Shown: piece by piece, positions 29,318 to 34,209 of the stretch | Layout: each line of letters begins with the position of its first letter | Numbering within the stretch: the first letter of the stretch is position 1 | NCBI RefSeq assembly: GCF_024662235.1 | Contig: NZ_CP096276.1 | Span: forward strand, 3,162,001-3,226,000 | From: Pimelobacter simplex | GTDB taxonomy: Bacteria > Actinomycetota > Actinomycetes > Propionibacteriales > Nocardioidaceae | DNA: 64,000 nt | Direction: 5' to 3' | Program-made: the position numbers and the translations under genes | The notes under the pieces: generated by a model | Told to the model about the DNA's origin: nothing | Database searches by the model: none | What the model saw: only the letters and a program-made list of their open reading frames with translations

Positions 29318-29782
29318 ATGGCGGATGCTCCCCTGAACCCGATCGACCTGCTGCTCAAGTCCCAGCAGGCCGCGCTCAAGCTCACGAGCGACGTCCTGCG
29401 GACCGTGCGCGACACCGCGGTCACCGGCGTCACCCAACCCGACGAGCTCGCGAAGCAGGTCGGCGACCTCGCGGGCGCGGTCGCCGGCATGGCCACCGGC
29501 ATCACCGGCCTCGCCGGCGCCACCGCCCAGCCGCTCCAGGACTTCATCGTCCGCCAGCGCGAGCTCGCCGACACCGTCCACACCCTCGCCGAGGCGCAGG
29601 CCGAGCTCGCGGGCGTGGTCGCCTCGCTCGCCGAGCGGCACGCCGAGGCGGTCGCGGCGCTGGAGAAGGTCACCGCGCCGATCTTCGCGGTCGTGGGGAC
29701 CGAGCCGACGGCGCCACGGACGCGGGCGGCGAAGCAGAGCGCGGCGGCGCGCGCGAAGGACCCGAAGGCCCCGAAGGACTAG
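29318..29782 (+). CDS. phasin-like alpha-helical protein, function unknown
   Basis: 154 residues from ATG 29318. Nearly all alpha-helical and heptad-like, with a hydrophobic Gly/Ala stretch in the middle (GDLAGAVAGMATGITGLAGAT) and a Lys/Ala-rich tail (RTRAAKQSAAARAKDPKAPK) resembling the tails of phasin and histone-like proteins. There is no signal peptide. A polyhydroxyalkanoate-granule or membrane-surface role is possible but not shown; no pha gene is nearby. It overlaps the end of the convergent gene at 29779 by four bases. Confidence 0.75.
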   Translation: MADAPLNPIDLLLKSQQAALKLTSDVLRTVRDTAVTGVTQPDELAKQVGDLAGAVAGMATGITGLAGATAQPLQDFIVRQRELADTVHTLAEAQAELAGVVASLAERHAEAVAALEKVTAPIFAVVGTEPTAPRTRAAKQSAAARAKDPKAPKD

Positions 29783-30492
29783 TCCGCGGGAGCCACCCCG
29801 GCCGGCGGCACCGGCCCGACCGGATCGACCGGGTCGTCGTCACCGGGCAGCGCGTGCCGCGGTGCGCCGGGGATCGCGGCGTACCCGTCGTCGCGGCGCA
29901 CACCGACCGCGACGCCCTCGATGCCGCTCGCCGCGACCGGCCCGAGGATCCGCGAGTCCATCGCCCGCGAGCGGTTGTCGCCGAGCACGAACACCTCCCC
30001 CTCCGGTACGACGACCGCCGCGAACGGTTCCGTGGGCAGCCCCGCCAGGTAGGCGTCGGCGCTCGGGCGCCCGTCGACGAGCACCCCCGCGCACGTCCCG
30101 TCGGGGCGTGCCGGACAGCTCACCGTCGCGCCACCCACCGCGATCACCCGGGTCAGCAGCGGGACCGGCACCTCCGGGACCGAGATCCGCACGACATCGC
30201 CGGGCGCAGCGGTGAGGTCGCGGTCGAAGGTCACCGACTCCCCCATCGCGACCGCCGGGTCCATCGCGTGGCTCGGTTGGCGCTCGTCGTAGTAGGGCCC
30301 CGCGCCGATCCGCCCGGCGCCCCACGAGACGCCGAGGCCGACGACGACCACACCCGCCGCGATCACCGTACGGCGCCGGCGGGTGCGGCGCGCGCCGCGC
30401 ACGGCCCGGGCGGCCAGGCCCGCCGGTGCGCTGATGTCGCCGCCCGCGGCGGCGGCCAGCGTGCGGAGCTCGGTCTCGACCGGCGTCGTCAT
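29779..30492 (-). CDS. membrane-anchored inactive signal peptidase I-like protein, putative sigma-factor partner
   Basis: 237 residues from ATG 30492, overlapping the sigma factor stop (ATGA). Order: basic cytoplasmic N-terminus (1-42), one membrane helix (about 42-60), then a LepB/S26 fold. Box B reads PSHAMDP: Ala76 stands where the catalytic Ser precedes Met. Box D reads LLTRVIAVGG: Thr114 stands where the catalytic Lys precedes Arg. Box E, VFVLGDNRSRAMDSR, is intact, as is an inserted disulfide-like pair (C126, C134). The fold is kept and the dyad lost, so it should not cut peptides; a binding or sensing role linked to the sigma factor is inferred. Confidence 0.85.
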   Translation of the reverse strand: MTTPVETELRTLAAAAGGDISAPAGLAARAVRGARRTRRRRTVIAAGVVVVGLGVSWGAGRIGAGPYYDERQPSHAMDPAVAMGESVTFDRDLTAAPGDVVRISVPEVPVPLLTRVIAVGGATVSCPARPDGTCAGVLVDGRPSADAYLAGLPTEPFAAVVVPEGEVFVLGDNRSRAMDSRILGPVAASGIEGVAVGVRRDDGYAAIPGAPRHALPGDDDPVDPVGPVPPAGVAPAD

Positions 30493-30992
30493 GACATCGC
30501 CTCCAGGGAGTCGTCGAGGCGGCCGCGCAGGCTGCCGAGGGCGCGCGAGAGGTTGCTGCGGACCGTGCCGGCAGCGCAGCCCATGATCCGCGCGGTCTCC
30601 GCCTCGCTGAGGTCCTCCACCACGCGCAGCACGACCGTCGCGCGCTGCTTGGGCGGCAGGCTCGCGAGCAGGGCGTCGAGCCGGCGGCGGGCCGCGACGG
30701 CGTCGGCCGGGTCCGCGACGGTGGCCCGACGCTCGGGCTCGACCTCCTCGGCCGGGGTGGGCACGAGGTGGCGGCGGCGACCGCGGTCCCGGGCGAGGTT
30801 GACCAGGATCGTGCGCGTGTAGGCCTCCGGCGTCTCGGTCCGGTGCCAGTGCCGGGCGAGCCGGGTCAGCGCCTCCTGCAAGGCGTCCTCGGCCTCGCCG
30901 TGGTCGAGCACCAGGAGCCGGGCGAACCGGAGGAGCCGGTCGCCCGCGGCGGCCACGAACGCCGTGAACGCGGCCTCGTCCTGGTCTCTCAC
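30489..30992 (-). CDS. SigE-family ECF RNA polymerase sigma factor
   Basis: 167 residues from GTG 30992. Region 2: FTAFVAAAGDRLLRFARLLV, AEDALQEALTRLARHW, YTRTILVNLARDRGRRR. Region 4: LASLPPKQRATVVLRVVEDL, EAETARIMGCAAGTVRSNLSRAL. This is the actinobacterial SigE-like ECF subgroup, usually followed by a membrane protein that controls it. Here that gene overlaps by four bases and encodes an inactivated signal-peptidase fold. The target genes are unknown; the M14 peptidase gene upstream is separated by 118 bases and reads on the same strand. Confidence 0.92.
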   Translation of the reverse strand: MRDQDEAAFTAFVAAAGDRLLRFARLLVLDHGEAEDALQEALTRLARHWHRTETPEAYTRTILVNLARDRGRRRHLVPTPAEEVEPERRATVADPADAVAARRRLDALLASLPPKQRATVVLRVVEDLSEAETARIMGCAAGTVRSNLSRALGSLRGRLDDSLEAMS

Positions 30993-31110
30993 ACCCAGGT
31001 AGACGAGAGCCGCGACGGAATCGTTGCACGGAGCGGCCGACGTCCACCCCGACCCGGACCCGTAGGTCCTGGTCGCGGTGGCGTCGGCCGCCCGTGCTGC
31101 AGCACCAGGA

Positions 31111-34100
31111 TCAGCGGCGGACCACCTTGACCTTGGTGGTGGCGACCGCCCGCGCCAGGTGGGCGCTGCCCAGGTAGGTCACCTGCACCGTGTGCTTGCC
31201 CTTGCGGAGCTTGGGCAGGAAGAGCGTCACCTTGCCGTTGGCGGCGACGGCACGCGAGGCGACCAGACGGCCGTCCACGCGGACCAGGACGGTGCCGGAG
31301 ATCTTGGCACCGGGCGCCGCGACGACGACCTTGAGCTTGGCCCGCTTCTTCGGCGTCACCTTGGCGGTCTTGATCTCCGCGGTGAGCGTCGAGGCGGCCT
31401 TGGCCACCTTGAGCACGGCGCTCGACGAGACGCTCGGGGCGAAGGCGGCGTCGCCGCCGTACTCGGCGGTGAGCACCTTGTTGCCGGCCTTGGCGAAGGC
31501 GGTCACCGGGATCGAGGCGACCCCGTTCTCGTCGATCTCACCCGAGCCGACGACGGTGGCTCCGTCGCGGAGGGTGACCACGCCCGAGGGCACCGGCTGG
31601 TCGCCGGCTCCGGTCGCGGTGACCTCGACCTGGGCCTTGACCCCCGTCGCACCGACCTTGGTGGTCGCCGGGCTGAGGGTGAGGGACGTCGCACTGGACG
31701 CGAGCGGCTCCTCGTAGCCGACCTCGGCCTTCCACGAGCGGTAGTTGCCCTCCTTGCCCGGGACGAAGTGCCGCTCGACGTTGCCGCGGCTGTCGACGGT
31801 GATCCAGCGGACCTCCGCACCGGCGTCGACCTTGAGGCGGGCGCCGAGGGTGTTGCGGAGGCCGTCGGCGTCGTACCGCTCCGAGGAGAGGTTCGGGACG
31901 GTGCCGTCGAGCGTGTAGAAGATCGCGGCCGGCTCGTTGGTCTCGAACTGGACGTTGACCTTGCCCGGTGCGGACGGCGCCGCGGTCACCGCGACCGAGG
32001 AGACCGGCGGCACCTCGTCGCGCTCGTGGTCGAGCGCGACCCGGGCCATCTCGATGAGGCCGTTGGCGAACTCCTGGCTCTCCGCGTGGGCGGAGGCGCC
32101 CTTGGGATCGGCGTTCTCGAAGGCGGGCTGGAACGTCGTGCCGACCTCGAAGTCCCAGGCGTAGATGCCGTACTTGTACCAGAGCATGTCGCCGGAGTTC
32201 CCGGCCGCCGAGTAGAGCACGTCGACGACCTGCCCCGTCTTCGCAGGCGTGACGCTCAGGCCACGGTGCCGCTTGATGGCGGTCAGGATCCGCGAGGAGG
32301 CGCCCCAGAACAGGCCTTCCTCCTCGAGGGTCGGGACGGGCGCGGTCTCGCGCCCGGCCGTCTTGTACGACGCCGGCGACCACATGAAGTAGTTGCCGGA
32401 GCTGTGCACGTTCATCGAGAACGTCATGTTCGGGTGCGCCGCGACCCAGTCGACGTTGCGCGCCTCGGGCTCGGACATCTCGGCCGGGCCCGCCGACGTA
32501 CCGCTGGTGCAGCTCGTGGTGGACGCGCCGCTGTAGCCGTCGAACGCGCTGTAGGTGTCGTAGTTGCGGTTGACGTCGACGCCCCACGAGTTGCGGGAGG
32601 CGAAGTCGCCGGTGGTGTCGAGACCGCAGTAGCGGGTCATGTTCTTGCGCTGGCTGTTGAAGTCGTAGAACGAGTAGTGGCCACCGTCGGGGTTGACCGA
32701 CGGGAGGATCCAGATCTCCAGGTTGTCGACCAGGTCGCGCGTGCCCTCGTGGGTGGCGTAGTTGCGGAGCAGGCGCTCGGCGGTCTCGATCGTCACCAGC
32801 GGCGGCACCCACTCCCGGGCGTGCTCCTGGGCGTAGTAGAAGACACCGGGCTTCGAGCCGTCGCGCACCTTGCCGATCTTGATGGCATAGACCTGCTGGG
32901 GGTCGTGGGAGATCGACGCCGGCGCGTTGAGCCCGTCGCTCAGCGCGGTCGTGGCGACCGGCGCGATCACTCCGGAACCCGTGTTGCCCCGGTAGGTGTA
33001 GGCCTTCACCAGGGCTCCGGCGGCCGGGCTGGCGTTGATCATGGCCACCGCCTGGGCGGCCGTGGTGGTCGGTGCACCGGCGGGGTCGGTGGCCAGGCTC
33101 AGCGTGATCGCCTTGCCCGTGACGGCGACCGAGGCCGCTGACGTGGGTGCCCCCGGGTCGACGACCGTGATCGTGATGTCGTTGCCGCCCTCGTGACCCC
33201 AGGCCAGCGAGTCGAGACCGACGCGCTGGGACATCGCCGTCGCGTTGTTCGCCGTCGGGCCGACCATCGCCTGGGCGACGCGCCGGTAGCCGTTGGTCTT
33301 GTACGGCAGCTCGACGATCTCGGCGAGGTTCGGGTAGGTCTCGGCGAGCTGCTTGATCCGGTCGTAGAGCTGGGTCGGGTCGAGGTAGGACTGGATGTAG
33401 TCCTCCTGGTAGCCCGGGCCCTTGAACGGGTCGGCCTCACCGGGGTTGGTCGGCAGCCAGTCGCGGACCTTGAAGATCGCCACATCGCCGCTGGGGCTGG
33501 TGATCCGGACCCGGTCGGGCCGCGTCGTGAGGCCGGCCGAGCTCGCACCGGTGTGGTACATGTACACGCCCGCGTCGATGAACGGCGGGATCGTCTGGGT
33601 GCCGCCGCTGCCGAACTCCGTGCCGGGGCCGCTGTCCCGCTCGACGGTGAGCGTCGGGACCAGCGCGCCGTTGGCGACCTGGGCCTCGACGGCGAGCGTC
33701 GGCGTACCGAACGACGTGAAGTAGTCGGCGCGCAGGATCTTGACGTCGCTCGTGTCCGGGTCGGTCGCCTCGGCGTCGAGCTGGTCGGCGCTCTGCTGGT
33801 GCTCCTCGATCGTGGCGTCGCGCTCGGCGACCACGGCCTCGGTGTCCGCGGCGGTCAGCAGCGTCGGGCCGACCTTGAAGCCGAGCGCCTTGAGCTGCTT
33901 GACCTCGCCGGGCGTGACGACGGCGTTGACCGCCAGGCCGTCCTCCTCCTGGTGGACGCCGTGGTCGAGGTCGACGCCGGTCGCGACGAGGCGGTCGAGC
34001 TCGGCGGTGCCCGGGACGACGATCTCGACGACCTGCGGCGTCTCGTCGGCGCTCCGGTCGAGCACCGGGTCGTCGGGAGCCGCCTGGCTGCGCGGCGCGG

Positions 34101-34209
34101 GCGCCGCGGTGGACTCGCTCGGCAGGACGCCGACGACGAGCCCGAACAGCGCCAGTCCGGCAGCAGAGGCCGCCCAGCGCCTTTTTCTCAGATGTGCTGA
34201 TGAAGTCAC
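31111..34209 (-). CDS. secreted M14 zinc carboxypeptidase with Ig-like C-terminal domains
   Basis: 1032 residues from GTG 34209 (GAGGG upstream). Signal peptide about 1-36; propeptide-like region to about 310; M14 catalytic domain about 440-750 with zinc ligands in EHAREW (His463, Glu466) and NVHSSGNYF (His602), substrate-binding DVNRNY, and the general base Glu688 in AWDFEVG. Residues about 317-437 form an insertion between two strands of the catalytic fold. The C-terminus has a chitobiase-like segment (about 760-840) and two Ig-like repeats (about 860-1030) ending in Lys/Arg. It should digest peptides outside the cell. Confidence 0.93.
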   Translation of the reverse strand: MTSSAHLRKRRWAASAAGLALFGLVVGVLPSESTAAPAPRSQAAPDDPVLDRSADETPQVVEIVVPGTAELDRLVATGVDLDHGVHQEEDGLAVNAVVTPGEVKQLKALGFKVGPTLLTAADTEAVVAERDATIEEHQQSADQLDAEATDPDTSDVKILRADYFTSFGTPTLAVEAQVANGALVPTLTVERDSGPGTEFGSGGTQTIPPFIDAGVYMYHTGASSAGLTTRPDRVRITSPSGDVAIFKVRDWLPTNPGEADPFKGPGYQEDYIQSYLDPTQLYDRIKQLAETYPNLAEIVELPYKTNGYRRVAQAMVGPTANNATAMSQRVGLDSLAWGHEGGNDITITVVDPGAPTSAASVAVTGKAITLSLATDPAGAPTTTAAQAVAMINASPAAGALVKAYTYRGNTGSGVIAPVATTALSDGLNAPASISHDPQQVYAIKIGKVRDGSKPGVFYYAQEHAREWVPPLVTIETAERLLRNYATHEGTRDLVDNLEIWILPSVNPDGGHYSFYDFNSQRKNMTRYCGLDTTGDFASRNSWGVDVNRNYDTYSAFDGYSGASTTSCTSGTSAGPAEMSEPEARNVDWVAAHPNMTFSMNVHSSGNYFMWSPASYKTAGRETAPVPTLEEEGLFWGASSRILTAIKRHRGLSVTPAKTGQVVDVLYSAAGNSGDMLWYKYGIYAWDFEVGTTFQPAFENADPKGASAHAESQEFANGLIEMARVALDHERDEVPPVSSVAVTAAPSAPGKVNVQFETNEPAAIFYTLDGTVPNLSSERYDADGLRNTLGARLKVDAGAEVRWITVDSRGNVERHFVPGKEGNYRSWKAEVGYEEPLASSATSLTLSPATTKVGATGVKAQVEVTATGAGDQPVPSGVVTLRDGATVVGSGEIDENGVASIPVTAFAKAGNKVLTAEYGGDAAFAPSVSSSAVLKVAKAASTLTAEIKTAKVTPKKRAKLKVVVAAPGAKISGTVLVRVDGRLVASRAVAANGKVTLFLPKLRKGKHTVQVTYLGSAHLARAVATTKVKVVRR

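Follow-up and report, generated by a model that had tools for sequence, protein, structure and literature searches.

The window analysed here is a 64,000-nucleotide stretch of the soil bacterium Pimelobacter simplex (NZ_CP096276.1), and all coordinates given below are window positions. On its reverse strand, the gene of a SigE-family ECF sigma factor (30489–30992) is followed by a partner gene (29779–30492, stop codon included) encoding a membrane protein of the signal peptidase type. The sigma gene starts with GTG at 30992 and its stop codon ends at 30489, the partner gene starts with ATG at 30492 and its stop codon ends at 29779, and direct reading bears out the overlap of the two by ATGA (30489–30492) that the first-pass annotation had described at 29779–30992 on this strand. 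The sigma factor, of 167 amino acids, contains both regions 2 and 4 (Pfam Sigma70_r2 and r4_2) and scores 142.6 bits against the NCBIfam model of the SigE family, TIGR02983, only just over its cut-off of 141.55. Just upstream on the same strand, a gene (31111–34209) encodes a large protein identified by Pfam as an M14 zinc carboxypeptidase that carries Ig-like repeats, and at another P. simplex locus (L159) a similar frame is found at the equivalent place. A convergent gene for 154 amino acids on the forward strand (29318–29782), without a significant Pfam match, ends at 29782, so that its last 4 bases are shared with the tail end of the partner gene. A Pfam scan of the four neighbouring window genes gave neither a pilin nor a sortase match.

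In the partner protein, of 237 amino acids, a basic N-terminal tail and a single hydrophobic segment precede an S26 domain, which is followed by a C-terminal tail that is conserved. Its sole Pfam match is PF10502 (Peptidase_S26, E 8.7e-16), it reaches 52.3 bits against NCBIfam TIGR02227 (cut-off 47), and its structure model (AF2) has an S26 fold together with a two-helix tail. The basic N-terminus, the one predicted membrane helix and the LepB/S26 fold recognized earlier from the letters are confirmed. All its parts lie on the reverse strand. The N-terminal tail (residues 1–41, 30370–30492), with helices predicted by AF2 at residues 4–17 and 26–46, is thought to lie inside the cell, given the basic residues ahead of the membrane segment; this segment is predicted at about residues 42–60 (30313–30369) from a hydropathy window starting at residue 41, and AF2 confidence is low at residues 47–60. 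The S26 fold spans residues 67–205 (29878–30294).

Within this fold the catalytic centre of a signal peptidase is absent. Ala76 stands in place of the catalytic Ser in box B (PSHAM, within PSHAMDP; codon GCG, 30265–30267) and Thr114 in place of the catalytic Lys in box D (LLTRV, within LLTRVI; codon ACC, 30151–30153), both read directly, as had been claimed, and placed by alignment. Box E, which had been called intact, is not: when GDNRSRAMDSR of the window protein is aligned with GDNRDNSADSR of the E. coli signal peptidase, Ala177 (29962–29964) falls at the Ser site, a third change that was overlooked. Measured against S26 peptidases, the protein thus has the fold and the sequence, and lacks both the Ser/Lys dyad and the box E Ser. 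Two cysteines, Cys126 (30115–30117) and Cys134 (30091–30093), are present in 81/81 family members and perhaps form an outer disulphide or a redox-sensitive loop. The C-terminal tail (residues 206–237, 29782–29877) follows in alignments the pattern PGAP...VDP.GPVPPA across the family, members that keep the dyad included; it is specific to the family and might occupy the emptied cleft.

Relatives were collected by one protein search for the close ones and then by two profile searches for the wider family, whose limit was set in one profile search at a drop in score from 151 bits, through one fragment at 99, to 88. The family reaches Nocardioides, Catellatospora, Plantactinospora, Dactylosporangium, Micromonospora and many metagenome proteins (names as given by the sources), an extent that is a lower bound because the protein searches scored no more than about 8000 candidates, those with the most words in common with the query. 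Eighty-eight sequences were aligned, and the exclusion of seven that lack one of the two dyad sites left 81 readable at both, which include close relatives and hence are not independent. A search of these orthologues for joint loss of Ser and Lys found it in 66 of the 81, with 5 keeping Ser only, 4 Lys only and 6 both, and on this alignment the loss of the catalytic residues is not private to the window protein. All ten proteins that keep Lys retain the box E Ser as well; in the 66 without either dyad residue the box E Ser site is Ala (61), Ser (4) or Val (1), and wherever Lys is gone position 114 is Leu, Ser, Thr, Met, Gln, Gly, Phe, Arg, Asn or Tyr. The surroundings are preserved: in the dyad-lost rows of one alignment (A4), chosen for their lack of Ser76 and Lys114, Pro73, Met77, Asp99, Arg115, Gly121, Asp172, Arg174, Asp179, Ser180 and Gly184 are each found in 51/51 and Ser74 and Arg181 in 50/51.

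Ser74 (50/51) and Asp179/Ser180 (51/51), so conserved, could be read as parts of a different catalytic apparatus, with which the partner would go on working as a protease. This is very improbable, since no base takes over from Lys at position 114 and since SipA, a streptococcal protein with the same losses, showed no peptidase activity (PMC4049620). That the partner is a decaying gene without function is hardly credible: its dN/dS does rise to 0.48–0.49 in two of six pairs, but the frame is open in 12 loci, all six ratios are below 0.5 and the ten positions named above are invariant in 51/51. Overall, the ratios (Nei-Gojobori, own script) are 0.22–0.49 for the partner genes in these six pairs and 0.12–0.33 for the sigma genes in four, so that both genes are under purifying selection, stricter on the sigma gene than on the partner.

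Within the genus, a member scoring more than 180 bits occurs in 6/215 genomes, and the best match after these reaches 70 bits; Ser and Lys are both lost in all six, and of 17 weaker genus matches 14 were inspected, every one with Ser and Lys kept. Across the order a clear member occurs in 4/293 genomes, each of the genus, and five more matches at 80–86 bits are classed as ordinary signal peptidases by score only. At the level of the class 3/197 genomes matched one family query (P0055), one of them new (L145), and 5/200 matched in the family of Asanoa. A laboratory strain of Nocardioides (Pimelobacter) simplex also carries a closely orthologous pair (L002). Two S26 proteins outside this family have Ala/Gln (P0119, from Phytohabitans aurantiacus) and Ala/Val (P0019) at the dyad positions and, by their sequences, may represent further dead signal peptidase lineages.

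The history of the loss was followed on a tree of 86 rows, of which 80 are from the family and 6 are ordinary signal peptidases, with the three sites themselves removed before it was built; proteins shorter than 195 amino acids (8), and in an earlier tree those shorter than 200 (7), were left out. Both trees resolve the base of the family poorly and have flagged long branches. On the 86-row tree the minimum number of changes is 5 for the dyad state, 5 for Lys and 9 for Ser. A cluster of near relatives displays, at positions 76/114/177, the forms SKS, GKS, TKS, AKS, GTS, ATS, SSA and ASA, a mixture that marks the loss there as recent. Orthologues that keep the dyad, which had been named as a sign of a recent mutation in the window protein, do exist (6/81), but in the clade of the window protein the dyad is lost in 19/19 rows, which excludes such a mutation here.

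The coupling to a sigma factor proved to be as widespread as could be followed in DNA. A SigE-family sigma gene lies directly upstream in 12/12 distinct family loci with readable DNA, in agreement with the synteny that had been proposed, and the sigma factors of the 11 other loci are 55–93% identical to that of the window. The two genes overlap by 4 bases in 11 loci and by 8 in L145; the 11 include L083 and L087, where the script took an earlier start and the ATG giving the 4-base overlap lies ten codons in. The partner gene is an open reading frame in all 12. Compared with 22 other sigma factors of the window's genome, the 12 partner sigmas form one clade (100/99), and among the matches listed the sigma/partner pair is all that the main clades share as neighbours. 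The dyad-keeping protein of L145, which also keeps the box E Ser, is sigma-linked too, and the pairing therefore does not depend on the loss of cutting; L145 is the only dyad-keeper whose DNA context was read, the others being P0007, P0056, P0153, P0155 and P0159. Of the overall first-pass reading, therefore, the combination of a signal peptidase fold without catalytic centre and a SigE-family sigma factor stands, and is conserved beyond the genus; the intact box E does not, and a sensor of pre-proteins that holds the sigma factor by its inner tail is a putative role. The partner is thus, as far as comparison can tell, almost certainly without signal peptidase activity and coupled to its sigma factor. 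Taken together, at least five changes of dyad state, nearly invariant flanking residues and the sigma linkage argue that catalysis has repeatedly been discarded from a sigma-coupled membrane protein.

A promoter-like motif, TGCAAC-N15-CTCGTC in the window (31002–31028, reverse strand), is found as TGCAAC-N15-CTCGT(C/T) 35–36 bases before the sigma start in 12/12 loci, although L165 has a spacer of 16 bases and L169 reads CGCGT. Since the spacers differ between clades, the motif is a footprint, and its occurrence at all 12 loci makes autoregulation of the sigma factor likely. In the 12 genomes the strict motif has 25 matches, 11 of which are the sigma factor's own promoter (that of L169 is missed because it reads CGCGT), and the 14 others compare with 19 for a reversed-pattern control, so that targets beyond the sigma gene itself do not rise above the control in these genomes. 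In the window's genome the second strict match falls either shortly ahead of a frame or within it, and this frame appears to be aldehyde dehydrogenase-like.

The same genome offers a wider setting, with 44 matches to TIGR02983 at E 1e-10 or better. In 18 of the 21 best SigE-family loci, the window's included, with gene starts chosen by script, an overlapping gene comes next whose product has a membrane segment starting at residue 34–47; the exceptions are L111, L115 and L119. About twenty SigE-family sigma genes are found at these loci (L107–L127); the 18 partners combine a short tail and a single membrane segment with varied outer domains, and the whole is a large paralogous set of probable sigma/membrane-partner pairs. 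The N-terminal tails were compared by a profile of 55 family tails (residues 1–45), run against the 17 other SigE-family partners of the genome, and no similarity was detectable: these scored –9.1 to 2.5 bits, as against 51.0 for the window's own tail. Shuffled sequences scored as high as the partner in 1/50 cases for L107, 4/50 for L121 and L123, and at least 8/50 for the other 14. Homology of the tail with those of other SigE-family partners is thus not detectable, and the common plan is one of architecture. No Pfam anti-sigma domain was found in the 63 members scanned, all of which contain PF10502; the three further matches, single and weak, are not anti-sigma domains.

These two results speak for a partner that activates the sigma factor or tethers it to the membrane, as opposed to an anti-sigma factor. 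Such a role for the partner is nevertheless distinctly unlikely, since the membrane partners encoded after ECF sigma factors are more often inhibitors. The partner is probably a regulator of its sigma factor, and a putative way of holding it is suggested by CnrY, the class II anti-sigma factor of CnrH, which contains a short two-helix anti-sigma element (PMC7406223). Anti-sigma factors of this kind wrap the sigma factor with a short cytoplasmic tail of two helices. Two helices are predicted in the window tail (AF2), a likeness that comes from the model, and the outer domain here is of the S26 type.

The closest known counterpart of the outer domain is SipA (LepA) of Streptococcus pyogenes (PDB 4n31, 4k8w), the best structural match of the partner model, both having an S26 fold without the dyad. 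SipA is a dead signal peptidase that has lost the two dyad residues and showed no peptidase activity, and in its structure the cleft is kept with a peptide inside, oriented much like arylomycin in the E. coli signal peptidase (PMC4049620). The bound peptide speaks for peptide binding by a dead cleft. SipA also provides the model for an assembly chaperone, in which the dead S26 domain would hold one secreted client and the linked sigma factor, instead of being held, would drive expression; in its favour, SipA has lost the same two residues and kept its peptide cleft (PMC4049620). SipA, however, serves pilus polymerisation, whereas the window partner is coupled to an ECF sigma factor and carries a basic N-terminal tail and a conserved C-terminal tail. 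As no client gene is common to the clades among the matches listed, and as a basic tail, one membrane segment and an overlap of 4–8 bases are the plan of 18/21 SigE-family loci, the chaperone is unlikely. Besides the window copy, the genome encodes two S26 proteins in which Ser and Lys are both kept, and cutting therefore does not require the window copy. Their presence, and the preserved cleft-side residues, would be in keeping with a decoy or modulator of a true signal peptidase that competes for pre-proteins or pairs with LepB, its amount being set by the sigma factor; this is quite improbable, because it leaves unexplained the pairing with one sigma clade across bacterial families.

Dead signal peptidases are already known from SipA and from SpsA of Staphylococcus aureus, a homologue that is likewise without two conserved catalytic residues (PMC12445088), although in the part of that source available no sigma coupling is mentioned for SpsA, unlike the window partner. 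Coupling of such a protein to a sigma factor is not found in the literature listed: a search of the open-licence PubMed Central literature gave no sigma-coupled S26 protein among the matches listed. Signal peptidase and ECF control are also joined in the anti-sigma factors RsiV and RsiP, which are cut at site 1 by signal peptidase; there the cut is made by a peptidase that is active and separate from the anti-sigma factor, whereas here the dead fold is part of the sigma factor's own partner. PbpP, a penicillin-binding protein that senses beta-lactams for sigma-P (PMC8092216), similarly shows the homologue of a drug target as an ECF sensor. Its fold is unrelated and it acts beside a separate anti-sigma factor, so the likeness to a sensor of inhibitors is one of logic, not of family.

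The evidence is best explained as a whole, with somewhat better than even confidence, by a self-regulated signalling unit of two genes, a SigE-family ECF sigma factor and a one-pass membrane regulator whose outer domain is a signal peptidase I that lacks both dyad residues as well as the box E Ser. The short two-helix N-terminal tail would exert a CnrY-like hold on the sigma factor at the membrane, and the sigma factor would be freed, directly or via proteolysis, when the emptied cleft of the S26 domain binds a peptide-like ligand or when that ligand is absent; the freed sigma factor would then drive its own operon and so amplify itself. Candidate ligands are pre-proteins that remain uncut, free signal peptides and natural inhibitors of the peptidase. 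The gene coupling, the loss of three residues with the fold preserved, the repeated loss in the family and the common promoter motif are its basis, each established by comparison of sequences. For the putative use of the S26 cleft in sensing a ligand, taken by itself, the case is evenly balanced; restraint of the sigma factor by the tail together with sensing of a peptide-like ligand by the cleft is a likely, still putative, arrangement. More tentatively, and somewhat below an even chance, a cutting signal peptidase may first have joined an ECF sigma factor through the N-terminal tail and then shed catalysis several times independently, leaving a receptor. On the same tentative footing, its emptied cleft may read the flux of uncut pre-proteins or the signal peptidase inhibitors of neighbouring soil bacteria.

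Related pairs are present in other bacteria, and an enzyme thus seems to have found a second use, probably as a sensor of the outside. If this is true, a housekeeping protease has become the sensing part of a sigma-factor switch, in a family in which dyad-keeping, half-lost and dead relatives (6, 9 and 66 of 81) coexist today, and the bacteria that carry it would gain a direct monitor of protein export or of signal peptidase inhibition.
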